A stretch of DNA of 36,367 nt. Origin: an uncultured Prevotellaceae bacterium (GTDB taxonomy: Bacteria > Bacteroidota > Bacteroidia > Bacteroidales > Muribaculaceae). Below the pieces are notes generated by a model. It was not told where the DNA came from. It searched no databases and saw nothing but the letters and a program-made list of their open reading frames with translations. The DNA lies in NCBI GenBank assembly GCA_900314215.1, contig OMUK01000068.1, positions 1 through 36,367 of the forward strand, written 5' to 3'. Below, piece by piece: positions 1,124 through 15,137 of the stretch; position 1 is the first letter of the stretch; every line of letters starts with the position of its first letter. A program made the translations under genes and the position numbers.

Positions 1124-2470
1124 TTATTTCTTAGGTGTCATCATCAAGTTGAGTTGGTGACCATCGTTGAGCAGGTGGCTTACGAAGGCACGCACGTCGG
1201 CACGGGTGATGCTCGAGAGGGTGCTCTCGTAGGGGGTGTGGAAGTCGAGACCGTCGTTGAGCACGTAGTTCTGCAGCATGCTCATCCAGTAGCTGTTGTC
1301 TTGCATGCTCTCCTTGTGCATGCGGCGGTAGTAGTCCTTCTGCTCCTTGAGCTGGGCGGCGGTGATGCCTGTGGCGCCGGCTCGCTTGAGGTCGGCAAGC
1401 ACGATTTCTCGAGTAGCCTCGCCCTTGCCGGCAGTGACGGTGGCGTTGAAGGGGAAGAACACCACGGGGTCGCTGTCGCCGTTGTCGCTGTCGACCACGC
1501 TGCAATGGCTGTCGATGTGCTTGGTCCAGCCCCGCTTCTCGCGCAGGTCGTTGAGCCAGATGTCGCTCATGATGCGCCCGGTGAGTTGTGCGGTGAGATA
1601 ATTCTTGAGGGTGTATTTCACATTGGCGGTCCAGAAGAAATACACCTTGTCTTGCGGCTCGGCCATCTCGCCGGTGAAGCGCGAGGTCTTGGTGCTGTTG
1701 AAGAGGTGGTAGCCTATGTCCTTGGGTTTCTCCACACGACCATGGCTGGGCAGGGTGGCGATGTATTTCACTACCATGGCCTTGAGTGAGTCGACGTTGA
1801 AGTCGCCTACCACAAAGACGCTCATGTCGCCCAGGTCGCTGAAGCGGTCGCGATACACGCGCAGCACGCAGTCGTTGTCGAGATGGTCGAGGTCGTAGTC
1901 CGACACTTTCTCCGACCCAATGGGGTGGTGGCCAAACACATTGGAGAAGATGGAGTCGGCAAAGGCGAACTTCGGGTCTTGGTGCTTGGCATTGGCTTGC
2001 TTGTTGATGCGCACGTACTTATTGACGGCGGCAGTGTCGATCTGCGGATAGAGCACCTTGAGTTGCATCACCTTGAGGGCCGTCTCAAGGCCGGTGTTCT
2101 TGCAACGGCCCTGGAAGCCTTCCTCCTCTTTCTCAGCATAGGTGCGCATGCGGGCGCTGTCGGCCCTGAGCATCCTGCCCAGCTCTACGGCCGACTTGCC
2201 AGCGGCCCCCGACACGGCAATCACGGTGTTGAGCTGCTTGAGCGAGGGTGCATCCTCGGGGCGGTAGTTCTGCGACAATCCGCCTGGCGACACGCCTTGT
2301 ATCGAGAGCCAACCCGGAGTGAGCTTGGTTGCCTTCACGTAGACGTTGATGCCGTTGCTCAGGGTCCAGTGCTGGGCGCCGTACACGCCCAGCGGTTCTT
2401 CTTTCACGATGCTTTGTGCACTTGCCACGAGGCAGCCCAAAGCCAGTATTGCTACAAATAGTTGTTTCAT
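1124..2470 (-). CDS. M16 (insulinase-fold) protein, single half, no zinc-binding motif
   Basis: This 448-residue protein opens with a signal peptide (MKQLFVAILALGCLVASAQS). It resembles the C-terminal, non-catalytic half of PqqL-type M16 proteases: LSNGINVYVK near residue 37, a SPGGLSQ segment near 60-67, an M16_C-like FVVGDFNVDSLK near 220, and LREKRGWTKHID near 310, the region that holds the R/Y-type substrate-contact residues in inactive M16 subunits. I find no HxxEH zinc motif anywhere, so it should not cleave alone. Full PqqL-like proteins are about 930 residues; this is one half with its own export signal. It is the last gene of the operon, 6 bases after the DUF6850 gene. Periplasmic location is inferred. 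It could bind peptides passively or pair with a catalytic half encoded elsewhere. Confidence 0.8.
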   Translation of the reverse strand: MKQLFVAILALGCLVASAQSIVKEEPLGVYGAQHWTLSNGINVYVKATKLTPGWLSIQGVSPGGLSQNYRPEDAPSLKQLNTVIAVSGAAGKSAVELGRMLRADSARMRTYAEKEEEGFQGRCKNTGLETALKVMQLKVLYPQIDTAAVNKYVRINKQANAKHQDPKFAFADSIFSNVFGHHPIGSEKVSDYDLDHLDNDCVLRVYRDRFSDLGDMSVFVVGDFNVDSLKAMVVKYIATLPSHGRVEKPKDIGYHLFNSTKTSRFTGEMAEPQDKVYFFWTANVKYTLKNYLTAQLTGRIMSDIWLNDLREKRGWTKHIDSHCSVVDSDNGDSDPVVFFPFNATVTAGKGEATREIVLADLKRAGATGITAAQLKEQKDYYRRMHKESMQDNSYWMSMLQNYVLNDGLDFHTPYESTLSSITRADVRAFVSHLLNDGHQLNLMMTPKK

Positions 2471-2476
2471 TGTTGT

Positions 2477-4003
2477 TTAAAATAAAAATGCTATTGATGA
2501 GTAAAATTGATTGGAATGAATGTCGTTGTGATATGCGTCATATTGCCAGTCGATACTGGCCTTGATGGCGTAGCGGTCGTTGAGCCGCACGTGGGTTGCC
2601 CAGCCCAGCGAGAGTTGCCAGCGGTCCTTGCTCAGCCAGTTGTGCTCGCGCTCGATCACGCGTTGCAGGCCCATGAGCTCGGCCGAGGGTTCGCTCAGTT
2701 GCAACTGGCTTTTTGCAGGATTGGTAAATCCCACACGGGCCGAGAGCACATGATAGGTGCTGCCTATCGTGGCACTTCCCTTCAGCTTCAAGGCATAGGT
2801 GAGGTCGTTGTAGAGCAGGCGGCTCACAGGGTCGGCATAGAGCACGTTGTGGTGGTTGTAGTCGATGCCGGGGCGCACGGCCAGCCCGTAGCCTCCCCAC
2901 TGGTGTTGCCACACGCCTGTGGCGCCCAGGGCAAAGCGGTTGTCGTAGAACATGTCGAGGCTGCCTATCTTGAGGTACACGCCTCCCATGGGGTCGCCAA
3001 ACACGTTCTCACTGCCCACGCGGCGAGATGCCTGCATGTGGGCCTGAATGCCCCATCCAGCGGCGAGCCAGCCAGCCTCGGCGGCAATGGCGTTGTGGCT
3101 CACGTGGGCCATGGGGAGCTTGTTGAGGCCGGTGAGCACATTGTTAAGGGTGAGGCGCTTCGCCTCCACGCTTGCCGAGAAGCCACGGTTGTGGGTCGCA
3201 TGCAGGTTGAGCGAGGCGCCCCACTGGTGACCGTTGTAGTAGGTGTCGTAGCCAGTACCTCCAAATCGGTTGTACTCGTTGGCCAGGCCTGTGAGGTGAA
3301 ACATTTTTTCTGCGCCCAGCTCGCTGTAGAAGTCCACATTGTTGGTCTGCTTGTATTTCACGAATCCGATGCCCAGGGCGCCCACATAGTTGCCCCCGAG
3401 GCGGTAACCGATGCCTGTCTCGAGGTCGAGGTGGGCGGTGACGTTGCGCGGACGCGGGTCAACGTTGCGGTAGTAGAGCCCGGCTGTGTAGGCCACTTGG
3501 GCGCCCCACGACAGGCGGCCGCGGTGAGAGGCATAGCCGCCGCCGAAGCTGTAACGCTCCACATTCATTTTCTTGCCGCCCACGCTGTCGGCCAGCAAGT
3601 AGGGATACACGATGTCGACGTCGCTGGTCTCGTTCCAGGTCATGTTGTTGATGCGGCCGTTGTTGTAATAGGCACGGCCCCACAGCGTCTGGTCTTTGTA
3701 TTTGATGTAGCTCGTGGCGTCGAAGGCCCATGTGCGGTCGCCGTCGCCCAGCTGCGCGCGCAGGGCGGTGCTCTCTTGCCGCGAGGCAAACGACACAGCA
3801 ACGCTGCTCAGCGAGTAGCTGTGTCGATACTGGTTGATGACCGGGTTTTGCCATGCCAGCGAGAGCAGGCTTTGCGACTCGCGGTTGCTCAAGTCGATGC
3901 GTTGCATCACGGTGGCGGCGCTGTCGGCAGGCAGTGCGCTCCCGGTGGCAGTGGCGCTCGCTGCTGTGGCTGCGATTAGTATTGATAAAATTGCTCTTGT
4001 CAT
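2477..4003 (-). CDS. DUF6850-type outer-membrane beta-barrel protein
   Basis: I chose the ATG at 4003, which gives MTRAILSILIAATAASATA, a clear signal peptide; an upstream in-frame extension would lack one and overlap the previous gene. The mature part (about 490 residues) is a run of short alternating strands rich in Gly, Tyr and Trp, and the protein ends in FYSSIAFLF, the aromatic terminus typical of outer-membrane barrels. The sequence and position match what I remember of DUF6850 family outer-membrane beta-barrel proteins, found next to DUF4876 lipoproteins and TonB receptors in Bacteroidales. The gap to the DUF4876 gene is 17 bases and to the M16 gene 6, so the genes are surely co-transcribed. 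Substrate unknown; a second pore or assembly partner for the receptor is an inference. Confidence 0.75.
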   Translation of the reverse strand: MTRAILSILIAATAASATATGSALPADSAATVMQRIDLSNRESQSLLSLAWQNPVINQYRHSYSLSSVAVSFASRQESTALRAQLGDGDRTWAFDATSYIKYKDQTLWGRAYYNNGRINNMTWNETSDVDIVYPYLLADSVGGKKMNVERYSFGGGYASHRGRLSWGAQVAYTAGLYYRNVDPRPRNVTAHLDLETGIGYRLGGNYVGALGIGFVKYKQTNNVDFYSELGAEKMFHLTGLANEYNRFGGTGYDTYYNGHQWGASLNLHATHNRGFSASVEAKRLTLNNVLTGLNKLPMAHVSHNAIAAEAGWLAAGWGIQAHMQASRRVGSENVFGDPMGGVYLKIGSLDMFYDNRFALGATGVWQHQWGGYGLAVRPGIDYNHHNVLYADPVSRLLYNDLTYALKLKGSATIGSTYHVLSARVGFTNPAKSQLQLSEPSAELMGLQRVIEREHNWLSKDRWQLSLGWATHVRLNDRYAIKASIDWQYDAYHNDIHSNQFYSSIAFLF

Positions 4004-4020
4004 TTTTTTTTCGTGATTGC

Positions 4021-5307
4021 TTATTTGGGCGTTACGCCATCCCAAGTCTCGGTGGTGCACTTGGTGCCGTCGACATTCATGACGGTGTGCTTCCGCTCAA
4101 TCTCGCTGGCTATGCTGTAGGGGTTGAAGTCGGCGGTCGAGTTGTTGGTGTCCTTGAGCACAGGGTGGCCGTCCTTGAGGTAGAGCATCTTGCGGCGCAC
4201 GCTGTGGAAGTAGCGCGTCTTGTCCTTGTCGATGTTGCCGCAATAGCTCCAGCCGCGGTCCAGACTCGGGTCGGTCACATTCCACGTGTAGTTGCTGGCC
4301 ACGCTGCAATTCACGGCGTCGACGATCCACTCGTTGGGGATGTAGTACTTGGTCTGCGACATGGGGAAGCTGCCGGCCTCGAGCACAATGTCGTAGGTGA
4401 AAGTGTAGAGGTAATTCTTCAGGTAGGTCGCCTTGTCGATGGGGATGCGGGCCAGCGCCCAGGCTTTGAAGCCGCGGTTGTGGAGCACCCAGAACGATAG
4501 GGTGTAGCAGTACCACTTGTCGAGGTTGGGCACGGTGGGGCTGTCGATGTCGAGGTGAGCGGGCATGGTCGACACGTCGTACCACTCAAAGTCGGCGTCG
4601 CTCAGGTCAAATGAGTTTGGGTTGGCCACGCGGTGGTCGATGCCGGTGTCGACGATGCGCAGCTCGCCGCCAGGTTGCACGGGGTGGTCATGGCCGTTGC
4701 CCGGTATCGTGTAGATGGCTTGCACGGTCATGGCGCGATTCATGATGTTGGGGGTGTAGTTGTACTTTTGCGTAGTGAGGAAGTAAGACTCGAGTATCGA
4801 GAGGCCGTCGGCATAAAGCACGTGGTCGGTGTTGTTGTAGATTTTGATGTAGTCGTCGCCATAGTACTGGTTGCCCGAGGGCTGCAGGGTGCCGGTGAAG
4901 AACACCTCCGAGATGATGAAGTCGTCGTTGTCGTTGCTCTCAAAGGCGGTCAACTTCACCGTGGAGTTGCTGTGGGTGAGTTCCACGTTCTGGCTGAAGA
5001 CGGTGATGCGGTGCTCTACGCTGTCGCCGGGCACGGCCACCTCGCCGGTATAGGTAAAGTCGTAGAGGCCGGTTTTCAGGCTCACGTCGGCCTCGCCGGC
5101 ATAGGTGGTGGTGCGGCCTGTCGACACATTTTTCACCTCGATGGTGGCGCTTGTGACTTTGCCGCCCAGGCTGTCGAGGTTGGCAGGCAACGTGATTTCA
5201 AATTTCGGCATGATGCTGTCATTGTCGCCCACGTCCTGTGGCGTGTCGTCGCAGGCCGTGATGCCGAGTATGATGCCAATCAAAAATAGATATAAAATTC
5301 TTTTCAT
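4021..5307 (-). CDS. DUF4876-type surface lipoprotein with lamin-tail-like segment
   Basis: The start at 5307 gives MKRILYLFLIGIILGITACDD, a type II signal peptide with lipobox GITAC and acidic residues just after the lipidated Cys19, as in many exported Bacteroidota lipoproteins. An in-frame extension upstream would lie inside the TonB receptor gene and is not real. The 428-residue protein starts with an Ig-like strand region (about 30-135). A segment of the lamin-tail-domain kind follows (DFIISEVFFTG, then DDYIKIYNN and LYADGLSI, about 140-200), then a long region without a named motif. Together these match DUF4876. It sits 26 bases after the receptor, the usual place for the substrate-capturing lipoprotein of a TonB receptor pair, but it is not a SusD homologue. 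Ligand unknown. Confidence 0.75.
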   Translation of the reverse strand: MKRILYLFLIGIILGITACDDTPQDVGDNDSIMPKFEITLPANLDSLGGKVTSATIEVKNVSTGRTTTYAGEADVSLKTGLYDFTYTGEVAVPGDSVEHRITVFSQNVELTHSNSTVKLTAFESNDNDDFIISEVFFTGTLQPSGNQYYGDDYIKIYNNTDHVLYADGLSILESYFLTTQKYNYTPNIMNRAMTVQAIYTIPGNGHDHPVQPGGELRIVDTGIDHRVANPNSFDLSDADFEWYDVSTMPAHLDIDSPTVPNLDKWYCYTLSFWVLHNRGFKAWALARIPIDKATYLKNYLYTFTYDIVLEAGSFPMSQTKYYIPNEWIVDAVNCSVASNYTWNVTDPSLDRGWSYCGNIDKDKTRYFHSVRRKMLYLKDGHPVLKDTNNSTADFNPYSIASEIERKHTVMNVDGTKCTTETWDGVTPK

Positions 5308-5333
5308 CTCTATGCTGTATTTTTTTTGATTTT

Positions 5334-8117
5334 TTACAAACTGAAATTGAGCTCCATGCCGAAGTATGGGTCGGTGATGCGCCTCACGGTGAGGCCGTTG
5401 CTCTTGTAGTCGGGCAGGCAGTCGATGAGGCGGTTGGCAAAGACGGCGATTTTCAAGTGCTTGCCTATCTGCTTGGTTGCCTTGAGGTTGACATACATGG
5501 CGATGGGTGTGGTCTGCTTCTTGTAGGTGGCCTCGTTGTAGCTTTTCACCAGGAATTGCAGCATGGGGTCGCTGCGCATCTCCTGGGTATAGGGGTGCAG
5601 CTGGCCGTCGGCAGCGCTCAGGTAGTAGTCGGGCACGCCGTTCTGCCACAGCTTGCGGGTGCTGGAGTACCACATGCACTGTAGCGAGGTGGAGAAGATG
5701 AGGCCCCAACGGGTGATTTGGGTGTCGAACATGAAATTGGTGTTCATCTGCTCGTTCACGCGGCCGTTGTTGCAGTCGTAATAGCCCACGTAGTAGTCGC
5801 TCACGGCCCGGTTGTCGACCACCTCGGTCACGGGGTCGTAGAGCATGAGCGAGTTGCTATAGGTGCTGCGGAACCAAGCTCCGGTGATGGTGAGGGCTGT
5901 GGCCAGCGGCCGCCAGCGGGCGGTGTTGATCACAAACTCGATGCCCTGCTTGTCGAGGCGGCTGCCATTGGCCGGCGAGGTGTAGCCGTCGAGTATGCGC
6001 ATGTCCTGATAGGGTAGGGCATCGAGACTCGGCGGCCCCGTGAGGGCAGTGGCATCGATGGCGCTGGCGTCGTACTTGCGGTACTCGTAGGGCTGATATA
6101 CCGACGAGTAGCGGAAGCCCGAGGTCATCTTCTCGTTGAAATAATCAATCGAGAAATGGTTCTTGCCAATCGACCATCCCAATCTGATTTCCCACTTGTG
6201 GTTGATTGCGGGCTTCAGGTTGTAGTTGGTGCGGTCGTTGATGTAGGTGCGCAGGTTGACGCGGCTGTACTCGGTGGGGTGGTTCACGTCGTAGTAGGTG
6301 AGCTGGACGAAGTCGCTGTAGTGCACCTGCGGGTACAGGTAGTCGGTGGTGGGCATCTTGGTGGTGATGCCGTAGCCGCCGGCAAGAAACACTTCCACTT
6401 TGTGCCCAGCCAGGGTGAATGTGGGTAAAGTCCACTTGCCGTTGAGGCGCGGGTCGAGATAGGTGCGGCCGCTCATGCTGTACTTGCTGTTGAGGCCTGG
6501 CATCGAGATGGTGCGCAGTCCCAGTTGCAGTTCCACCTTGTTGCGGCCCAGTCGGGTGGTGAGATTGTCCTCGGCATAGAGCGAGAGCGTCTGCAAGGCG
6601 GGTATGTCCTTATAGGCGCGCGGGCGGGTCACCCACGAGGCCGAGAGTGGGCGGGTGAGGTCGTAGACCTGGCCGTCGCCGCGGTTTTTAGCGTAGTTCC
6701 AGTCGCCGCCCAGCTTGTAGTCGTGCTTGACGATGCCCGTTTCGGCCACGCCTTCACCCTTGAGTTTCAGGAAGATGTTGACGGGCTTGCCGTCGCTCAC
6801 GTAGTAGGCTATATACTCGCTGAGCAAGTACTGGCCGTCGTGCACACCTGCCTCCATGCTGGTGGGGGCCACGCTGGCGCGCTGCGGTGCCACCTGCTTG
6901 CGGCGCTCCAGGCGGTTGCTCTCGTAGCTCACGCTCGTGTTCAGGTTCACGTGGTTGAGCCAGCGCATCTTCAAGAAGTTCAGGTTCAGGTCGTTGGTAT
7001 AGGCAATGCGGTTGTAGTTGCTTTTGTACTCATTCACCTTGGTGGCGCTGATGTCGGGGTCGGTCTTCACGTTGTCAAACGAGCCGGTGTAGTCGATGGC
7101 TGCCACCCAGCTCGTCTTGAGCGACGGCCGCTCCCACTGGAAATTGAATCGGGCCGACAGCGTGGCGCGCTTGTAGTTCTCCAAGTTGTTGCGCGGGTCA
7201 ACTTTTGAGTCCAGGTAGCTGCCGTCGACGTTCATGATGTGATTGCTGTGGCCCAGGAAGAAGCCCTTGCCGGCACTCACGAGCTTGCTGTACTCGTCGG
7301 CCTTGAAGCGTGCAGTGAAGGGTGAGGCGCCACGCTTGCGCTTGATGTTGACCAGACCGCTGGTGAGGTTGCCATACTCGGCCGAGGGGATGCCGCGCAC
7401 GATTTCTACGCTCTCGATATTGTCGGTCGAGATGGTGCGCATGTCTACACCGCGGTTGGTGGCATCGCGCTTGTACTCGGGCGAACTCTGGTCGGTCGTG
7501 GCGGTGGGAATGTTTTGCAAGTTGGCGTCTTCGTTGATGGGCGCGCCGTCGACCATGAAGAGCGTTCCTAGTGAGCTGATGGCGTAGTCGTCGTTGCGCG
7601 TCTTAGCGCCTGTGGCGCCCATGGTGCCGGTCTCGCGCAGCTGTATGGTGTTCACGTTGCCCATGTCGGGCGTCTGGCTCACGTTGCCGGGCAAGAGCTC
7701 AAGCAGATCGGTGAAGCTGGTGGGTTGCAGGTGGGTCATGGCGTCGCGGTCGATGCGCGTGGTGCTCCTCAGGCCGGTCTGCTCCTTGGCGGTCACCACC
7801 ACTTCTTGCAGCACTTGGCTGTTCTCCTTGAGCTTGATGGTCACCTGCCTGTCGGCATTGACTGCAATGGTTGTCGCGCTGGTGGTGTAGCCCACCATCG
7901 ACACCGCCAGCCGATAGCTGCCAGCCTCTACCTTGAAGTGGAAGCGGCCGCTGGCATCGGTCTGCTGGGCCTGCGCGCCAGGTTTCAACGTCACTGTGGC
8001 AAATTCGATTTTCTCGCCGCTGCCGGCGTCGACCACGATGCCCTGCAGCGTGTACTGTGCAGCTCGGGTGATAGTCGTGCTCAAGAGTAGCAACGAGAGT
8101 AACAGGATTTTCTTCAT
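5334..8117 (-). CDS. TonB-dependent outer-membrane receptor
   Basis: This 927-residue protein has a signal peptide (MKKILLLSLLLLSTTITRA). A carboxypeptidase-regulatory-like domain covers about 22-105 (IVVDAGSGEKIEFATVTL, then YRLAVSMVGYTT). Next come a TonB-box-like LQEVVVTAKE, a plug domain (about 115-265, with LFMVDGAPIN and IESVEIVRGIPSAEYG), and a long barrel ending in FGMELNFSL. It drives active uptake across the outer membrane using TonB energy. The plug-to-barrel transition NLTSGLVNIKRKRG is intact and I see no break. It is the first gene of a four-gene operon with a lipoprotein, a second barrel and an M16-like protein. No SusD partner is present, so it is unlikely to be a standard glycan receptor; a peptide, protein, haem or metal-chelate ligand is more likely but not shown. 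Confidence 0.92.
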   Translation of the reverse strand: MKKILLLSLLLLSTTITRAAQYTLQGIVVDAGSGEKIEFATVTLKPGAQAQQTDASGRFHFKVEAGSYRLAVSMVGYTTSATTIAVNADRQVTIKLKENSQVLQEVVVTAKEQTGLRSTTRIDRDAMTHLQPTSFTDLLELLPGNVSQTPDMGNVNTIQLRETGTMGATGAKTRNDDYAISSLGTLFMVDGAPINEDANLQNIPTATTDQSSPEYKRDATNRGVDMRTISTDNIESVEIVRGIPSAEYGNLTSGLVNIKRKRGASPFTARFKADEYSKLVSAGKGFFLGHSNHIMNVDGSYLDSKVDPRNNLENYKRATLSARFNFQWERPSLKTSWVAAIDYTGSFDNVKTDPDISATKVNEYKSNYNRIAYTNDLNLNFLKMRWLNHVNLNTSVSYESNRLERRKQVAPQRASVAPTSMEAGVHDGQYLLSEYIAYYVSDGKPVNIFLKLKGEGVAETGIVKHDYKLGGDWNYAKNRGDGQVYDLTRPLSASWVTRPRAYKDIPALQTLSLYAEDNLTTRLGRNKVELQLGLRTISMPGLNSKYSMSGRTYLDPRLNGKWTLPTFTLAGHKVEVFLAGGYGITTKMPTTDYLYPQVHYSDFVQLTYYDVNHPTEYSRVNLRTYINDRTNYNLKPAINHKWEIRLGWSIGKNHFSIDYFNEKMTSGFRYSSVYQPYEYRKYDASAIDATALTGPPSLDALPYQDMRILDGYTSPANGSRLDKQGIEFVINTARWRPLATALTITGAWFRSTYSNSLMLYDPVTEVVDNRAVSDYYVGYYDCNNGRVNEQMNTNFMFDTQITRWGLIFSTSLQCMWYSSTRKLWQNGVPDYYLSAADGQLHPYTQEMRSDPMLQFLVKSYNEATYKKQTTPIAMYVNLKATKQIGKHLKIAVFANRLIDCLPDYKSNGLTVRRITDPYFGMELNFSL

Positions 8118-8139: not shown

Positions 8140-8207
8140 CAAAATTACTGTAGCACAAGTGAGGGGTAAATCCCCACTTTGTGGTAATTTCGCGGCCATG
8201 CATCCCC
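8140..8207 (-). promoter_or_regulatory. Promoter of the TonB/M16 operon with GGGGAT-type direct repeats
   Basis: Minus-strand order: GGGGATGC (8207-8200), 24 bases, GGGGATTTACC (8175-8165), 17 bases, then the -7 box TAATTTTG (8147-8140), which ends 22 bases before the ATG at 8117. The TTTA inside the second repeat is exactly 19 bases before the -7 box, at the -33 position, so a protein bound there would touch RNA polymerase. The two GGGGAT cores are 32 bases apart, about three helical turns. The same arrangement recurs at 12609-12690. The regulator is unknown. Confidence 0.7.
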
Positions 8208-8305
8208 ATTTGTTACGATATGTGATGGCCTGCTTGGCCCGCATGATTCACACCTCGCACATTGTGCAATCGTCGATTTTTTTTCAAAAAAAATGCTAAT
8301 TGGTG

Positions 8306-8336
8306 TTGTGGTGAGGGTGAAAGTGGCTTAAATTTG
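8306..8336 (+). promoter_or_regulatory. Putative promoter of the divergent secreted-protein gene
   Basis: A TTG at 8306-8308, 20 bases of spacer, and TAAATTTG at 8329-8336 match the Bacteroidota -33/-7 pattern. The box ends 24 bases before the ATG at 8361, so the leader would be short. No GGGGAT-type repeat lies on this side. Confidence 0.6.
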
Positions 8337-8360
8337 TAAGCAGTATTTTTACTTAAGGCG

Positions 8361-9332
8361 ATGAAGCGAATTTTGACTGCCATATTGCTGCTGGCTGCTG
8401 TTGCTGCCTGGGCCCAGGACAAAGGCGACACTTTGCCCGCGCTCAAGTTTAAAATCGACGTGCCGCAGCTCCAGCTTCAGCCTTTTAAACCGAGCCTCAC
8501 GACCATCTCGCCCAACATCGTTGCGCCACCCACCTTCAACTACCGCCCGCTCGAGACGCCCACGGTGGGCAACAACTTGAGCGGCCTGAGCGACGAGATG
8601 CGCGCCTTGCCCGAGATTCACACGGCCCGTAACCCTTACTACTACCCCGTGACGCCGCGCTACAATTTTGTGATGGACCCCTATGGCCGCGACTGGAGCG
8701 CCAGCGGCGTGATAGCCCGCGACGGCAACGCCTATATTACCGCCAGCGGCAGCTACACCACCTTGCCAGCCATGGGCACGATAGGCTCGGCCACGGTGGG
8801 ATTTACTGGCGTGAGCAACGAGCGATTCACAATCTCGGCAGGAGTGAGCGGCATGAAGTATCACATCGACCGCGACGCCTGGAACGACTTCGGTGTCTAT
8901 GGCAACGCCAGCTACATGCTCAATGAGCGGCTGAGCCTGAACGTCTTTGGCCAGTACTACCTTGACCCGCGCTTCCACTCGATAGGCTCGATGTATTACA
9001 TACAGAATGCTGGCTATGGCGGCACGCTCAACATCAAGATGAGCGACAACTTCGGCCTCGACTTGGGGGCACAGCGATACTACGACGCCTATGCCCACCG
9101 CTGGCGCACGCTGCCTATCGTGGCCCCTGTCATCAATATCTTTGGCCAGCCCCAGTCGTTCGATGTGGGCGGCCTCATCTATGAGCTTATCGACAATTTG
9201 ATCGAGAATCATCGCAACAAGCGCTTCTCGGGTGGCGATTACGGCCCATGGCCGGGCGGGCGGGCACCTGCGGGCAGAGTCACACCCGTCGACGTGAATC
9301 GGCGGGCAGCCGGCGGCACCGTTGGGCATTGA
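8361..9332 (+). CDS. Secreted protein of unknown function, probable outer-membrane or surface beta-structure
   Basis: This 323-residue protein starts with a signal peptide (MKRILTAILLLAAVAAWAQ). I recognise no family. A proline-rich linker (about 30-95) is followed by many short alternating Gly, Tyr and Phe-rich strands, for example GNAYITASGSYTTLP, FTISAGVSGMKYHI and LSLNVFGQYYLD, between about 125 and 260. This pattern fits a small outer-membrane barrel or a surface beta-sheet protein. The C-terminus (about 285-323) is Gly, Pro and Arg-rich and ends in GGTVGH, without the aromatic last residue of a classical barrel. It is transcribed away from the TonB operon from a shared 243-base intergenic region. 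An IS1380 transposase ends 60 bases downstream on the other strand. The ORF is complete; function unknown. Confidence 0.6.
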   Translation: MKRILTAILLLAAVAAWAQDKGDTLPALKFKIDVPQLQLQPFKPSLTTISPNIVAPPTFNYRPLETPTVGNNLSGLSDEMRALPEIHTARNPYYYPVTPRYNFVMDPYGRDWSASGVIARDGNAYITASGSYTTLPAMGTIGSATVGFTGVSNERFTISAGVSGMKYHIDRDAWNDFGVYGNASYMLNERLSLNVFGQYYLDPRFHSIGSMYYIQNAGYGGTLNIKMSDNFGLDLGAQRYYDAYAHRWRTLPIVAPVINIFGQPQSFDVGGLIYELIDNLIENHRNKRFSGGDYGPWPGGRAPAGRVTPVDVNRRAAGGTVGH

Positions 9333-9371
9333 TGCGGTTTCTCAATCTGCGGTGTGTGTGTGAAAGTCGTG

Positions 9372-9393
9372 GATTTTAGATATACCTAAAATC
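9372..9393 (-). terminator. Small hairpin at the stop codon of the IS1380 transposase
   Basis: GATTTTAG at 9372-9379 and CTAAAATC at 9386-9393 form a perfect 8-base stem with a 6-base loop overlapping the TGA at 9394-9392. It is AT-rich and lacks a T tract, so it may be a weak terminator or part of the element's end. Confidence 0.35.
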
Positions 9394-10762
9394 AGCAGGG
9401 AGTGCCGATAATGTTTGACACACTGGCGTATGCTTTGTTCTCCGAATAGATATTCAGAACATATTGTCTGGCGGTCTTCACCCATTTGGCCGGTACCGTG
9501 ACAAAGCGGAAGACGAAAGCCTTGACACGGCTGGTGGCCTTCAGTCCGTAAGCCTTCAGATCATGTCTGCTGATGAGCAACTGATAAAAGTTCCTGATGA
9601 GTGCCGTGAGGATGAGGAAGACGGCATTCTCCGCCATGAACGACCTCGGCAGCCTCTTCCATCCGAAGCCATTGTCAAGGTCGTCGAAGATGCGCTCCTT
9701 CGCTCCGCGCTGGTTGTAGAACTCCACCACATCCCGGTCTGTGGACTCGCAGTCATTGGTGATGATGCAGCGGTAGGTGTACTCACCCTCCCAGATGTCA
9801 AGCTCCTCGCCCGACATTCTTCTCTGTCGCTGGACGACGAGCCTGCACGGCATCCCCTCCCATTTTGCCGTTCTGATGGAGCAAAGCTCAAACTCTATTC
9901 CGTTGATTTCCTCACGCTTCCATCCACGCAAGGCAAAGATGTCGTTGTACATGGCCTGACAGCGGTTGCCGCGGATATAATAGTGATTGCAGTGTCTTGC
10001 CACTGTCTCGACAATATCCCTCGAGCAGGAACCGCAGTCCATCCGCGCACGGTCAATGCGGACACCGCGACTTTCTAGTCTGGTGAACATTCTCTCAAGC
10101 GTATCCTGCTGGTGAAACCTCACGTTGGCATTACCGTCACGGTTCTCTATGCCGACGACCAAGTTCCCAATGACACCCACGCCAGGGCTGTATCCAAGGA
10201 ACTTCTTGTAGGTGCGCTTGGCGTCGTACTTCTCCGTTTCAAGAAACTCATGGTCAAAATCGAAGTCGTATTCCTCACCTGCCTTCAGTTGCCCGGTAGC
10301 AAGCAGAGCTTCTACAAGCAGGTCGTTTAGCCGGTCAGCCGTGTTGAAGTTGTAGTTTTTGCCAGCATCAGATGTATAGGTTACATTATCTTCCTTGAGC
10401 TCACCCATGATACGAAGCACTGTGTCAGAACTACATGTGCGCAGACGGGGATGCTGGGACAGATGCTGAGGAAGATGAGATGACAAATCTGCGACGCAGG
10501 AGCCTCTGCACAGGTAGACGCACATCAGCGAGCAGAAGATCTCGCTGCATTGATCACCGAACGTCTTGCAGCGCCGGCCGAGAACTTTGCCTGTAACTGG
10601 AGCCGACTGGTGGTTAAAATACTGCATGATGGGAAAGATTCCGCCAAAAGGTGGCAGTTTCTCATATTTTATTTGCTGTTTAAAAAACTCTCCCAGGGAA
10701 TGGCCTCGGGAGAGTTTTGTTTCTTTGTGTCGGGCCTGCTTGATGATAGGTGCAGGCTGCAC
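9392..10762 (-). mobile_element. IS1380-family transposase gene (insertion sequence, ends not resolved)
   Basis: The translated protein has the IS1380-type DDE transposase layout: KLPPFGGI near the start, DFDHEFLETEKYDAK with FLGYSPGVGVIGN in the middle, RARMDCGSCSRDIVE, and the C-terminal YNQRGAKERIFDDLDNGFGWKRLP region that holds the catalytic glutamate. The frame is open to the TGA with no internal stops. The start is unclear. The only upstream start in frame is a GTG at 10762; the first ATG (10627) would drop the conserved KLPPFGGI stretch. Typical proteins are about 425 residues, between the two options (456 and 411). Base composition differs from the GC-rich neighbours. I could not find convincing terminal inverted repeats or a target duplication, so only the transposase gene is placed. 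Activity unknown. Confidence 0.85.
10682..10718 (-). terminator. Rho-independent terminator, probably of the secreted propeller gene
   Basis: On the minus strand AAAACTCTCCC, a 13-base loop and GGGAGAGTTTT form an 11-base perfect stem ending in a run of six T. It is about 60 bases past the stop of the 10778-12511 gene. It also lies within the N-terminal extension of the transposase frame, so it could instead be a read-through guard of the insertion sequence. Confidence 0.7.
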
Positions 10763-10777
10763 GTGGAGTTGAAAATC

Positions 10778-12511
10778 TTATTTCAACATCTTCACGGCCT
10801 CGCGGCTGCCGTCGCTGTAGGTGGTAACCTTGATGTTGAGGCCATCGTGGGGCACGGCGCTCTCCATGCCTTGCAGGTTGTAGTAGCGCACGGCCTTCAC
10901 GGTCTTCTCCACATTCACATCGTTCACGCCGGTCACAACCGACTTGAAGGGCAGGGTATAGGCCGAAATCAGGCAGGCAAAGCCAGTAGAGCTCACCACA
11001 AATGGAGCCTTGGCGGGAGCCTTAGAGCTCAGGTTGCTACCCTTGAAGCGGGTCATTGCATAGAGGTTGGAGCCGTCGGTCACCATGTTTTGCACAGTCG
11101 ACGTGTTGGGGAATAGTTGCACTTCGTCTTGCAGGGTGAGGGTTGCTTGGTCGTATTTCCTGATCTTGAGCGGGCCCAGCAGCGAGAAGTAGCCCACATA
11201 GAGGTTTTGGTTGGCATCCTCAAAGGGGCTGAAGAAGCCCGATTGGTTGGTGGCATCGGCGATGCCGCCCTCGAGCTCGCCCGTTGCAGCATTCACCTTG
11301 AGCAGCATGGCATTGCGGGTCTTGGTGGTCGAGATGGTGGTCTCGCCTGCGGTCACAGTGTTTTTAGCTTGGCCCATGAGGTAGACGTAGTTGTCGTTGA
11401 CATACATGTTGGGGATGTTGATGGCGCTGCCGCTAAGCGTTGACTCGTAAACCTTGAAATAGTCGACCGTGCCCAGGTCGAGGCTCACCTTGGCCAGAGC
11501 CCAGCTGGAGTAGGTGCCAGTGGTGGTTGCGCTCTTGTCGCCCAGGGTGATGGTGGAATTGGCAAGACCGCTTATCACGCCGCATGCATAGATTTTGCCA
11601 TTGTTGATGATGAGCTGGCGCAGGTTCTCGCAAGTGGCCGAGCCGCCGCTCACCAGGCTGTTCACATAGTTGCCATTGGCGTCAAGCTTCACCAGGTAGA
11701 GGCTGCCCACGCTCTTTTGTGCGTCGCCAGTCCAGCCCTCCACGTTGTGGGCCACGATCTTCACCGTGTCGCCATTGGCGCGGGTGAAATACATGGTGGT
11801 GCACACGCGGCCGCTCAGGTAGATGTTGTCTTGGTTGTCTACAACCAGGCCATAGAGGTAGGCGCCGGTTCCGGTGTTGTCTTTGTTGCTCTCGCTGGCG
11901 TTGGGTTGCGGGTCGTGGTTCACGTCGATTTGCTTAATCCACGAGATTTCGCCGTCGGCGGTCACCTTCATCACCAGCAAGCGGTAGTAGCGGGCAGTGG
12001 CGTCGGCGCCCAGGGTCCAGTTCAACCGGGTGGTGTCGCCCTTGGCGTCGACAAAGGCCAGGTCGTCGTTCAGGCGGCCATAGGTGTGGCGCACCTTGAA
12101 GGCAGCGATCACGCCGCCGTCGCTCGTCTTTGCGCCCCACTCCTCGCCAGAAGCAATCTCACCCACGGTGCTCTTCACCGTCCAGAGCACGCTGCCGTCG
12201 GTGGCATTGAGCTTCGAGAGCACGAAGTCGTGGTTGTAGGAGGTGCTGGTGTTTTGTGTGCCAGTGCCAATCTGTGTGTCGCCATAGGTGATCACATCGC
12301 TTGAGCTCTTGGTGCCGGCGTCGGCCAGCATGTAGAGTGTGCCGCCATCGCCTTTCACCAGGCTGCCACCTATCGTGGTGGTATTTGTGCCGCTACTCAC
12401 CAGAGCTTTGCCCCATTGCGACTCCACGCGGCTGAGGCTGTCGATAGTTTGTGCGCCTGCCAGCAGTGTCGATGCCAGCAGTGCAACTGCGAGAATGTAA
12501 TTTTTTTTCAT
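10778..12511 (-). CDS. Secreted propeller-like protein with type IX secretion-type C-terminal sorting tail
   Basis: This 577-residue protein has a signal peptide (MKKNYILAVALLASTLLAGAQ). Repeated units such as DFVLSKLNATDGSVLW, LYLVKLDANGNYV and AMLLKVNAATGELEGG recur across residues 80-430. Each places a strand with LxKxN/D before a glycine turn, the look of bacterial seven-bladed propeller (SBBP-like) repeats. The last about 40 residues (AVRYYNLQGMES, then DGLNIKVTTYSDGSREAVKMLK) resemble the type A C-terminal sorting domain of type IX secretion substrates, so surface attachment or release is expected. No catalytic motif is visible. It is a single-gene unit, with its own promoter sharing the GGGGAT-type element of the TonB operon and a strong hairpin after it. 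A cell-surface binding role is an inference. Confidence 0.75.
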   Translation of the reverse strand: MKKNYILAVALLASTLLAGAQTIDSLSRVESQWGKALVSSGTNTTTIGGSLVKGDGGTLYMLADAGTKSSSDVITYGDTQIGTGTQNTSTSYNHDFVLSKLNATDGSVLWTVKSTVGEIASGEEWGAKTSDGGVIAAFKVRHTYGRLNDDLAFVDAKGDTTRLNWTLGADATARYYRLLVMKVTADGEISWIKQIDVNHDPQPNASESNKDNTGTGAYLYGLVVDNQDNIYLSGRVCTTMYFTRANGDTVKIVAHNVEGWTGDAQKSVGSLYLVKLDANGNYVNSLVSGGSATCENLRQLIINNGKIYACGVISGLANSTITLGDKSATTTGTYSSWALAKVSLDLGTVDYFKVYESTLSGSAINIPNMYVNDNYVYLMGQAKNTVTAGETTISTTKTRNAMLLKVNAATGELEGGIADATNQSGFFSPFEDANQNLYVGYFSLLGPLKIRKYDQATLTLQDEVQLFPNTSTVQNMVTDGSNLYAMTRFKGSNLSSKAPAKAPFVVSSTGFACLISAYTLPFKSVVTGVNDVNVEKTVKAVRYYNLQGMESAVPHDGLNIKVTTYSDGSREAVKMLK

Positions 12512-12608
12512 TGCGATTGAAATTTTATATTTGAAAATTTTCTTCTATAATCAATAATTGTGTATGTGTCAAGCTTGCAGGCTCGCATGTAGCCTTCAAT
12601 TCCAATCG

Positions 12609-12690
12609 CAAAAATACACTTGCCCCTCGTCATGGTAAATCCCCAAAAATTACGATTTTTCCATTTCTGCATCCCCCCGATTGGGGATGC
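12609..12690 (-). promoter_or_regulatory. Promoter of the secreted propeller gene, second copy of the GGGGAT-type element
   Basis: Minus-strand order: GGGGATGC (12676-12669), 24 bases, GGGGATTTACC (12644-12634), 17 bases, and the -7 box TATTTTTG (12616-12609). Repeats and both spacings equal those at 8140-8207. Here the leader to the ATG at 12511 is longer (97 bases). A third copy in the opposite direction (12683-12690) turns the distal site into a perfect 8-base inverted repeat with a 6-base centre (12669-12690). Confidence 0.7.
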
Positions 12691-12907: not shown

Positions 12908-13891
12908 ATGGAGAACAAACAGATGACCATGGACAAGGCTCTTTCCAACCTGCAGCAGGCAGCAAGCCTAAATGCTGTCAAGCGGGAATGGAAAGATGGC
13001 AATGGAAAGACTGCCATTGTCAGCATCAAAGATGTGCGGTTTGCGGTCATGGTTGTCGGACAGGTCAACAAGACCAATGTCTTGAACACCGTCAAGGCTG
13101 TTAAGGAACTGCAGGAGGACAGCAGAATGCCCACTCTGCTAATATGCACTTATGCCTCTCCGACGACCATTCCGACAATCGTCAAGGAGAATATCAGTAT
13201 TCTTGATGCTGCTGGCAACTGCCGTATTGCAGGCAAGGATCTTTTCATAAACATACAAGGCAGAAAGCCGGAAGAAGTTAATGGGACAAATACCAAAGGC
13301 CTGACCGAGGCCGGAACGAAACTGGTTTTCTATTTCCTGCAGGACAAAGGCAATGTGGAAAAAACTTACCGGCAGATTAACAAGGATACGGGACTGTCGT
13401 TGGGACTCATAAAAAACACCATTGAGAGTTTAAAGGCAAACAAGTTCGTCACGCTTCACAAAGGCAGACGTGTACTCGTCAACAGGGACGAGCTGGTTGA
13501 AGTCTGGCAACAAGCCTACAACACTACCTTGAAGCCCAAGCTCTTCATTGGCAATTTGAGGTTTGTTGACCAGGAGGCAAGAAATGGCTGGAGGGATATG
13601 GCCCTTCCACCTGATTCGCATTGGGGAGGAGAAAGCGGTGCCAATCTGTTGGACGGCTATCTTTCGCCAGAGAAGTTCACTGTCTATACCAAGGGCACGT
13701 TGATGGATTTTCTGGCAACACACAAGATGATTCCTGCCGGCACTGGAGAGATCGCTCTTTACCATACATTCTGGACTGATGCTGATGACAACGCTACCGT
13801 GCCCAATCTCATCATTTACGCGGACCTGATGGGCAGCGGCGACAGCCGTTGTCTCGAGGCCGCCCAAAGACTGAAAGAATATGGATTATAA
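12908..13891 (+). CDS. AbiEi-type (type IV toxin-antitoxin) antitoxin / transcriptional regulator
   Basis: This 327-residue protein matches the AbiEi_2-like layout. An N-terminal alpha/beta domain (about 25-115, with MPTLLICTYASP and ISILDAAGNCRIAG) precedes a winged helix (about 130-185, GLTEAGTKLVFYFLQ to GRRVLVNR). The C-terminal region contains LKPKLFIGNLRF, the characteristic WGGESGANLLDGYLSPE, and VPNLIIYADLMGSGDSRCLEAA. These proteins repress their own operon through the winged helix and neutralise an AbiEii nucleotidyltransferase. The ATG at 12908 sits just after the palindromic operator. The stop overlaps the start of the next gene by 11 bases, showing translational coupling. The gene looks intact although its partner is damaged. 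Composition is visibly AT-richer than the flanking genes, suggesting horizontal transfer. Confidence 0.82.
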   Translation: MENKQMTMDKALSNLQQAASLNAVKREWKDGNGKTAIVSIKDVRFAVMVVGQVNKTNVLNTVKAVKELQEDSRMPTLLICTYASPTTIPTIVKENISILDAAGNCRIAGKDLFINIQGRKPEEVNGTNTKGLTEAGTKLVFYFLQDKGNVEKTYRQINKDTGLSLGLIKNTIESLKANKFVTLHKGRRVLVNRDELVEVWQQAYNTTLKPKLFIGNLRFVDQEARNGWRDMALPPDSHWGGESGANLLDGYLSPEKFTVYTKGTLMDFLATHKMIPAGTGEIALYHTFWTDADDNATVPNLIIYADLMGSGDSRCLEAAQRLKEYGL

Positions 13892-14506
13892 GATAACGAA
13901 GCGGCAATTGGGCAACGACCTGTTGTACGACACTTTATGGGCACTGGAGTTTGGAGGTGTGGAAGATGACGAGCAGATAAAATGGCGCCCCGAAGGAGTG
14001 CCCGTCATGTCTGTAAAATGCTTCAAGGATGTTCTGTCCCATGCTGTGGAAATCAACATAAATGACAGATTCTCTGTCCGTACGGCTCCTCTGTGCGGCC
14101 AGTTCCTTATCAAGCTCGACGCATGGACAGACCGCCATGACAGGGTGAACAAGGATGCATACGATATGCTGTACATGCTAAGCAAATACTTCATGACGAA
14201 GCTTATGGCATCCACTGAGATTCCGCCGGATGTGGATTTTGAGCATGATACGACTATCGACAACCTTATCTCAGGTGCGCAGTGGATTGCCAGTGATTTG
14301 AAGGAGCAACTCACAACAGAGCATCTCAGATATTATATCGGGCCGTAGATGCAGAATTGGATCAGGGTTCTGAAAGCAAGCTGGTTGGCCAGTTAGTTCA
14401 TTTCATGAATGATGATGACGAGGACGCTGTTGAGACCGTTATATCAATATGGAAGAGCTTCCGTGATGTCTTCCAGCAGGAATTAAAAAGAAGAGGCAAT
14501 GATTGA
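13881..14506 (+). pseudogene. AbiEii-type nucleotidyltransferase, catalytic core missing and frameshifted
   Basis: The ORF from 13881 stops at 14348 (155 residues). Its first about 22 residues (MDYKITKRQLGNDLLYDTLW) look like the family's N-terminus. It then jumps to FGGVEDDEQIKW, which in AbiEii-like proteins follows the nucleotidyltransferase core. The GS-type motif and the two metal-binding aspartates of that core are absent, an apparent in-frame loss of roughly 90-100 residues; this figure is from my memory of family length. The C-terminal half with PLCGQFLIKLDAW and DRHDRVNKDAYDMLYML is well preserved. After the stop, another frame continues from about 14342 with AVDAELDQGSESKLV and a long acidic, helical tail to a TGA at 14504-14506. 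A one-base indel near 14330-14341 explains this. The restored end overlaps the next gene's start. Confidence 0.7.
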
Positions 14507-15137
14507 GATTCATAACTACAGCATCAGAGGAAATAAGGAAGTCAACGAGGATGACGTTAAGATTGCCATTATTGATGATGATCATTCTATTGTTGCCGTA
14601 GCTGACGGAATGGGAGGCTTGGAATGCGGCGATGTCGCCTCAAAGATAGTATGTAACAGTCTTGTAGGATACATCAGGGAGCATTTCTCCGGCCAAACGG
14701 TAGAGCAACTGATGACCGATGCCTTTGATTTCGCGGATCAAAAATTATCCAGAGAGATGGATATAATGCATACGAATATGGGTACTGCTGCATTGTTGGC
14801 AATAATTACTCCGAGGCTGTTATATTTCAGTTGGCTGGGGAATGTCAGACTCTACCATGAGCATAACGGCATTATCTCGCAACTAAGCTCAGACCATTTG
14901 GTTGACACGGGATATGGCGATAAAAGGCTGACGAGATGTGTCAAAGGTAAGGGACTAAGAAAGCCACTGCCTTATAAAGAATGCAAGATTTATCCAAGCG
15001 ATAGATTATACATCTGCACGGATGGTTTCTACATGCAGTATGCTTCATTGACGGGTTCTCAAGAACTATCTCAGGAAACATTTGAAAGCCAGGCTAAGCC
15101 TGAAGACGACGCTACTATTGTAACGATCAACGTATGA
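14499..15137 (+). CDS. PP2C-family (PPM) serine/threonine protein phosphatase
   Basis: This 212-residue cytoplasmic protein carries the PP2C motifs in order. NED at residues 16-18 and DGMGG at 36-40 are metal-ligand motifs. GTAALLAII lies near 103, WLGNVRLYHEHNG near 115-128, LSSDHLVDTG near 134, CTDGFY near 172, and DDAT at 203-206 holds the last metal aspartate. All metal-binding acids are present, so activity with Mn or Mg is expected; it is a little shorter than typical stand-alone members (about 240-250). The ATG at 14499 overlaps the original end of the nucleotidyltransferase frame by 8 bases, so it is the third gene of the cassette. No kinase is in view. A role in toggling the toxin or antitoxin by dephosphorylation is speculative. 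AT-rich composition like its two partners. Confidence 0.85.
   Translation: MIEIHNYSIRGNKEVNEDDVKIAIIDDDHSIVAVADGMGGLECGDVASKIVCNSLVGYIREHFSGQTVEQLMTDAFDFADQKLSREMDIMHTNMGTAALLAIITPRLLYFSWLGNVRLYHEHNGIISQLSSDHLVDTGYGDKRLTRCVKGKGLRKPLPYKECKIYPSDRLYICTDGFYMQYASLTGSQELSQETFESQAKPEDDATIVTINV

Follow-up and report, generated by a model that had tools for sequence, protein, structure and literature searches.

Background

What joins a surface-receptor operon to an unrelated secreted-protein gene when the two carry repeats of identical sequence and spacing in front of their promoters? The question is raised by a 36,367-nt stretch of DNA from an uncultured Prevotellaceae bacterium (Muribaculaceae in GTDB; GenBank assembly GCA_900314215.1, contig OMUK01000068.1), hereafter the window, which is contig 99 of 140 in a 2.88-Mb genome that is 90% complete. 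An earlier reading of this DNA, the original prediction, described a two-site promoter element common to both transcription units, built on a repeated GGGGAT and fitting an activator. The present study followed the element through its genome, the genus, the order Bacteroidales, and a gene-blind scan of other species. The results point to the operator-promoter of a Bacteroidales iron-starvation regulon, most likely worked by a CdhR-type LuxR protein together with a hemerythrin. The order is prominent in the gut and counts mouth pathogens among its members, and for some of its low-iron genes PMC10434189 reports an induction of more than 100-fold.

Two inverted repeats at a fixed distance from the -7 box

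On the minus strand, positions 8207-8140 read GGGGATGC-N24-GGGGATTTACC-N17-TAATTTTG and positions 12676-12609 read GGGGATGC-N24-GGGGATTTACC-N17-TATTTTTG, each a run of 68 bases. The window holds two copies of the pair GGGGATGC-N20..28-GGGGATTTACC, and 100 dinucleotide shuffles gave none; repeats and spacings are identical, as first described. The coordinates of the first site also hold; the second GGGGATGC starts at 12676 rather than at 12690, and the bases at 12690-12683 (GCATCCCC), which the original prediction left unmentioned, are the other arm of a perfect 8 + 8 inverted repeat, GCATCCCC-N6-GGGGATGC. The parts of the two elements are as follows.

8202..8219, minus strand: distal 18-bp inverted repeat of site 1, ATCGTAACAAATGGGGAT, matrix score 16.8, with its right arm GGGGAT at 8207-8202
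8170..8187, minus strand: proximal inverted repeat of site 1, TTACCACAAAGTGGGGAT, lying over -33, 32 bp from the distal repeat and 22 bp before the -7 box
8140..8147, minus strand: -7 box TAATTTTG of the receptor operon promoter (sequence and matrix)
12669..12690, minus strand: distal inverted repeat of site 2, GCATCCCC-N6-GGGGATGC, with its 18-bp core at 12671-12688
12639..12656, minus strand: proximal inverted repeat of site 2, ATCGTAATTTTTGGGGAT, lying over -33
12609..12616, minus strand: -7 box TATTTTTG of the secreted-protein promoter (sequence and matrix)

Alignment of relatives replaced the direct-repeat reading, in which GGGGAT occurring twice was the unit, by one of two inverted repeats per element with centres 32 bp apart. 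Each GGGGAT is the right arm, and hence one half, of an 18-bp inverted repeat, because the left arms, which had not been used in the search, pair with the right arms across a 6-bp spacer: complementarity reaches 79% of positions in the distal repeat and 46% in the proximal one, and no more than 38% at any other spacer (23 sites from relatives). The proximal repeat, which is the weaker of the pair in the genus sites, ends 22 bp upstream of the TAnnTTTG box and overlaps -33. Promoters of Bacteroidales have a -33/-7 architecture of TTTG, 19-21 bp, and TAnnTTTG; the -7 box and its position are the same here, and it is the right arm of the repeat that takes over -33.

A position matrix for the genus was trained on same-genus relatives alone, using 23 of the 37 rows returned by an up-to-2-mismatch search of 61 genomes; five own-genome rows, four rows without a locus, and L014, L016, L021, L032, and L037, which looked spurious or unclear, were dropped. 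Scored with this matrix, the only places in the window reaching 8 or more were the two elements (31.9 and 26.9), and none did so in five shuffles. The window gave no Rfam family at gathering score and no hit in a tRNA search.

Many copies in the genome and genus lie in front of iron genes

A genome-wide search for GGGGAT-N26-GGGGAT recovered both window sites and one more on contig 32, where TAATTTTG stands at the same 22-base distance even though the -7 box was not part of the query. When 61 genomes (the window's own and 60 relatives) were searched for the exact pattern with the -7 box, it turned up in four, each a member of the window's genus (reversed control, 0); with up to two mismatches it was found in 27/61 same-genus genomes (37 rows; control, 1). 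The proximal repeat and -7 box alone, at up to two mismatches, matched six places in the own genome (reversed control, 0), which precede FeoAB, a hemerythrin-LuxR operon on contig 32, a TonB receptor, a flavodoxin, the window's secreted gene, and an Nramp metal transporter. The third genome copy at identical spacings, these single-repeat versions, and the copies in relatives bear out the proposal of one promoter element common to both transcription units, and the further copies that a search of the genome and its relatives was expected to yield do exist. Their theme is iron starvation, as flavodoxin, FeoAB, and Nramp occur together behind the boxes. The expectation that copies would lie mostly before envelope or secreted-protein genes as such was not supported, although outer-membrane receptors are numerous among the iron genes; as an account of the regulon it was replaced by iron, with FeoAB, flavodoxin, Nramp, TonB receptors, and hemerythrin-LuxR as its members.

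Across the genus, 30 box places had an open reading frame (ORF), three of them in the own genome and 27 in relatives. FeoA-FeoB stood behind 14/27 of the relatives' boxes. Another 3/27, in three genus relatives, preceded proteins orthologous to the secreted one of the window (35-41% identity), and 1/27 preceded an ortholog of the window receptor (66%). At three genus box places a GGYGE porin-like protein was noted by eye downstream; the remaining relatives fell into no assigned class. This porin-like family recurs by eye behind boxes at L020, L029, L033, L174, L185, L194, and L275, and is a candidate iron-starvation outer-membrane protein. At L047, a 101-aa receiver-like fragment (3094-3399, plus strand; no match in a Pfam search) runs divergently from the own-genome Nramp gene, with a box-like repeat at 3038.

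Flavodoxin promoters across the order

Flavodoxin was sought in 119 genomes of the order, one for each other genus; 67 matched, and loci were taken for 30 genomes, the own genome included. Among the 29 non-own genomes, 28 of which belong to other families, 15 had a flavodoxin upstream region scoring at least 12 with the genus matrix at a spacing of 22, a score reached by 0/580 shuffles and 0/29 reversed sequences. At the other spacings from 12 to 34, between 0 and 7 of the 29 upstream regions scored as high. This sharp preference for a 22-bp spacing fits a class II site, one held at a fixed distance over the -35/-33 region.

The 15 flavodoxin sites, combined with 10 of the 18 boxes found in LuxR loci (described below), gave the consensus ATMCCYAHWWDTRGGKATT(G/T). 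The predicted operator core is an 18-bp inverted repeat of about ATMCCYA-N4-TRGGKAT, which can be read as A-[TMCCYAH]-WW-[DTRGGKA]-T. In this reading it shares its 7-2-7 layout with NarL-type sites, for which the consensus of NarL is TACYYMT-N2-AKRRGTA. If transcription starts about five bases after the -7 box, as in the usual numbering of these promoters, the centre of the proximal repeat falls near -43, the position of a class II activator.

Gene-blind scan

A search of genomes from 84,980 species for exact matches to the consensus ATACCTANNNNTRGGKATT-N21-TANNTTTG yielded at least 120 stretches, a sample; the counts that follow hold among the matches listed. By title and by eye, 78 of the stretches were Bacteroidales, 33 other Bacteroidota, and 9 unclear. 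Together they contained 122 box places; at 81 of these, an ORF of 90 aa or longer lay within 130 nt and was scanned for domains. FeoAB, hemerythrin, or kin of the window receptor occurred at 31/78 Bacteroidales and 6/9 unclear loci and at 0/33 loci of other Bacteroidota (31/78 versus 0/33, p 3e-6), so that the matches outside Bacteroidales look like chance. The same three classes made up 34/81 of the close downstream ORFs against 1/78 of controls from the same loci (p 4e-11). Pfam domains among the 81 were TonB Plug (23), FeoB_N (13), Hemerythrin (7), GerE (5), DUF4876 (3), Kelch (2), and Por_Secre_tail (2). In the control ORFs, Plug, FeoB, Hemerythrin, and GerE each occurred fewer than two times, DUF6850 four times, and DUF4876 twice, the last two being probably further genes of such operons. 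A hemerythrin gene was entered from 8/122 box places. Kin of the window receptor behind exact boxes included proteins of a Tannerella sp. metagenome-assembled genome (L216, 52% over 910 aa) and of Phocaeicola vulgatus (L143, 41% over 929 aa).

A second repeat (score at least 8) stood 32 bp upstream in 5/120 exact single boxes, and every other distance between 18 and 74 had one case at most; the double site is therefore optional, and 32 bp is its preferred distance.

Named genomes were also searched with up to three mismatches. P. vulgatus ATCC 8482 had 15 sites (control, 1), with targets that by eye include a TonB receptor, a porin, the hemerythrin-LuxR operon, flavodoxin, and AhpC, among others. 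The genome G119 had 13 sites (control, 0), Prevotella multiformis 5 (control, 0), a Parabacteroides sp. 5 (control, 1), an incomplete Porphyromonas metagenome-assembled genome 1 (control, 1), and the own genome 5 (control, 0). Small His-rich, membrane-like proteins of 110-117 aa lie directly behind boxes at L300 and L302 (P. vulgatus), L307 (G119), and L236; three of the four contain HSHPF or HSHPY, and they perhaps handle metal. In P. vulgatus (G179), at C1 3153172 and 3160215, two near-identical lipoprotein genes stand behind ATACCAATTAATTGGTAT repeats, possibly a different palindrome that the pattern picked up.

A hemerythrin-LuxR pair as the candidate regulator

The operon on contig 32 that lies behind the box encodes a LuxR protein with a GerE domain (PF00196, 1.3e-16), and matches to this protein were found in 30/30 genomes tested, the family being broad, with up to 11 LuxR matches per genome. 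At 24/30 best LuxR loci, the own genome included, a hemerythrin-domain gene stands beside the LuxR gene. The 30 loci held 18 boxes against 0.5 in shuffles, and 9/24 hemerythrin-LuxR operons had a box in front of them at threshold, these nine belonging to nine families, the window's among them. In 4/30 genomes the LuxR gene lay within 6 kb of flavodoxin, where 0.11 were expected. Directly behind exact boxes, at five loci among the matches listed, the two partners are fused into single hemerythrin-GerE proteins of 317-331 aa, and in Prevotella multiformis such a fusion follows a 3-mismatch box. A structure model of one fusion, built with seven sequences (mean pLDDT 79, pTM 0.62), was all-helical, with long helices in the hemerythrin part, the last of them reaching residue 243, and then four short helices in the DNA-binding part.

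In window-genome numbering, all 33 hemerythrins compared keep H89, H134, E138, H166, H210, and E214. These four His and two Glu, in the order H, HxxxE, H, HxxxE, match the di-iron ligand set of RIC proteins. A profile of these partners matched ScdA (1e-10) and YtfE (9e-8) in the PDB; the window-genome hemerythrin scored 53.1 bits, under the NCBIfam RIC cut-off of 204.7. The 32 LuxR partners (26 split and 6 fused) have in common a recognition-helix core, T-[VIA]-x-[ST]-H-R-[RK]-[NK]. In 24/26 split partners the acceptor Asp of the receiver is replaced, by Asn in 21, Ser in 2 (where the alignment is uncertain), and Glu in 1, and two keep Asp, as judged by eye.

These proteins have a probable named relative in Porphyromonas gingivalis, whose PG_1237 is called CdhR and is cited as a regulator of hmuYR; the title of Wu et al. 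2009 calls CdhR a novel transcriptional activator, and available passages of PMC10434189 place the response-regulator and hemerythrin-domain genes PG1236-38 in one group induced by low iron. The match to CdhR (PG1237) is one of gene order and annotation. This LuxR protein is singled out by its linkage to flavodoxin, by the boxes at its own operons, and by the fusions behind exact boxes, and we think it quite probable, as read from these genomic associations, that a CdhR-type LuxR/NarL protein binds the element.

Alternative explanations

Several results weigh against this assignment or against a simple form of it. Among the 29 non-own flavodoxin promoters, 14 scored below 12 (13 of them below 8), including that of the sole other genus of the same family, and 15/24 hemerythrin-LuxR operons had no box at threshold in the loci examined, L106 being borderline. 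A CdhR-type LuxR, recognised by eye, accompanied the flavodoxin box in 14/15 genomes against 10/14 without the box (p 0.17, not significant); G171 (86% complete) has a flavodoxin box and a CdhR-type LuxR was not found in it, and G115, with the strongest flavodoxin box, has its LuxR gene without a hemerythrin neighbour. Some targets in P. vulgatus and G119 have, by eye, no evident link to iron (a CysK-like protein, enolase, and lipoproteins). The proximal repeats of the window itself fit the order-wide consensus poorly, such that three mismatches catch site 1 and miss site 2. The lack of significant co-occurrence, the many operons without a box, and the weak proximal repeats in the window together argue against a simple picture. 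The fixed spacing could also come from a repressor site overlapping -33. The activator replacing -33 contacts that the original prediction put forward is in keeping with the fixed position over -33, as for class II activators, and a repressor would fit there too; the element probably activates rather than represses.

The gene content behind the boxes is that of a classical Fur regulon, which raises the alternative that the sites are boxes of a divergent Bacteroidales Fur, with Fe-Fur on the proximal repeat blocking -33 until low iron releases it. A probe of 75 residues from the Fur homolog of the window's genome detected a relative in 25/30 genomes. P. gingivalis Fur (PgFur) is reported to bind the hmu promoter in vitro, though not an E. 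coli Fur box (PMC6613475), and the same homolog, under the name Har, is reported to bind hemin (PMC4222909). Against this, no PF01475 match (E up to 0.001) was found in G115 (98% complete), G147 (99%), or G152 (74%), although the flavodoxin boxes of G115 and G152 rank highest among the 29 and the hemerythrin-LuxR operon of G147 carries boxes. The full-length PgFur is moreover reported to bind no iron, manganese, or heme (PMC6613475), and the 6-7 kb stretches around the window genome's three Fur-family genes held no palindrome within two mismatches. With box genomes lacking a Fur match, and PgFur reported to bind neither iron nor the E. coli Fur box, Fur is unlikely as the general binder, and it may have a part in P. 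gingivalis. DtxR was rejected as a candidate: the window's genome (90% complete) had no match to PF02742, its C-domain, the N-terminal domain not having been searched.

That another regulator, of the CRP/FNR type or another LuxR/NarL protein, binds the box, with the hemerythrin-LuxR operon merely one of its targets, is in our judgement quite unlikely. By eye, an ORF resembling CRP/FNR starts about 0.4 kb from the own-genome flavodoxin box, the number of LuxR matches per genome leaves other candidates, and other regulators are commonly found inside regulons; the 4/30 linkages to flavodoxin, the boxes at 9/24 own operons, and the fusions nevertheless single out the hemerythrin-linked LuxR. A chance or lineage-specific repeat with no regulatory meaning would agree with the 0/33 loci of other Bacteroidota found before FeoAB, hemerythrin, or receptor kin among the matches listed, the common -7 box allowing exact matches by chance. 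It is highly improbable given the 31/78 positive loci in Bacteroidales and given that both spacing and gene content recur in many families.

A proposed mechanism and its relation to known systems

Under control by the CdhR-type LuxR, which we favour, the hemerythrin partner would carry its di-iron centre when iron is plentiful and keep the LuxR protein off the DNA or inactive. When iron is short, a LuxR dimer would bind the proximal repeat at about -43. The right arm of that repeat, 22 bp before TAnnTTTG, contributes the T of the -33 region; the dimer would touch RNA polymerase as a substitute for good -33 contacts and so switch on its own operon along with FeoAB, flavodoxin, and TonB receptors. 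Some promoters, as in the window's genus, add a second copy 32 bp, or three turns, upstream. That the hemerythrin senses iron is about as likely as not. More broadly, Bacteroidales may read iron through a di-iron hemerythrin that is coupled or fused to a phosphorylation-independent LuxR activator acting at one promoter geometry, in place of Fur or DtxR repressors.

The finding extends a known regulator, CdhR, and known protein families. The titles, abstract openings, and passages searched on CdhR contain no binding motif, order-wide regulon, or hemerythrin fusion. The pair resembles NarL/NarP, of the NarL/FixJ type, in its GerE helix-turn-helix and in an inverted repeat with two central bases, and differs in that the acceptor Asp is mostly lost, the partner is a di-iron protein, and the regulon is one of iron. 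Its hemerythrins share profile and ligand residues with RIC proteins (YtfE, ScdA) and differ in falling under the RIC cut-off and in being tied to a DNA-binding protein. Compared with Fur/DtxR systems, the content of the regulon is alike and the operator different. Neither a published operator of this kind nor a hemerythrin-LuxR iron sensor appeared in the titles, abstract openings, and passages searched, which covered few subscription papers, and within those bounds the remark that the motif matches no known regulator site stands; the words Fur box and motif are absent from the main text of PMC10434189.

Because the operator has a fixed geometry, members of the iron regulon can be recognised directly in Bacteroidales genomes, and the di-iron centre of a hemerythrin linked to a LuxR protein becomes a testable candidate for the sensor. 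A role is likewise suggested for the genes behind the box, namely those for DUF4876 and DUF6850 proteins, the M16 peptidase, the protein with a type IX secretion system (T9SS) tail, the GGYGE porins, and the small His-rich proteins.

Genes behind the two window sites

The two sites of the window lead into the following genes.

5334..8117, minus strand: TonB-dependent receptor with a CarbopepD domain, first gene of the operon (domain search)
4021..5709, minus strand: frame of a DUF4876 protein, with the true start probably just below 5334
2477..4060, minus strand: DUF6850 protein (domain search)
1124..2470, minus strand: M16-type peptidase, last gene of the run (PF05193)
10778..12511, minus strand: secreted protein of 577 aa, with a T9SS-like tail by eye

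The secreted protein had been taken for a propeller with a sorting tail; the tail is plausible by eye, and the propeller found no support in Pfam or NCBIfam for this protein. The operon of receptor, DUF4876, DUF6850, and M16 genes resembles, by annotation only, PG1019-22 of P. gingivalis. In the passages of PMC10434189 that were available, PG1019-22 (DUF4876 and a TonB receptor) are 20.8- to 214.5-fold up in low iron, PG0495, with a T9SS tail, is 87-fold up, and the P. gingivalis low-iron list includes PG1019-22, flavodoxin, and hemerythrin/response-regulator genes. For B. thetaiotaomicron, BT_3631-3633 (DUF4876 and a TonB receptor) are tabulated there for low iron versus colitis with ratios of 112-128 and 15-19, the columns being unassigned.

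Between the two box-controlled units lie a DDE transposase (9392-10762) and an ORF without an assigned function (8349-9329). At 12908-15137, an AbiEi-like antitoxin gene runs divergently from the secreted-protein promoter, with a PP2C phosphatase beyond it.

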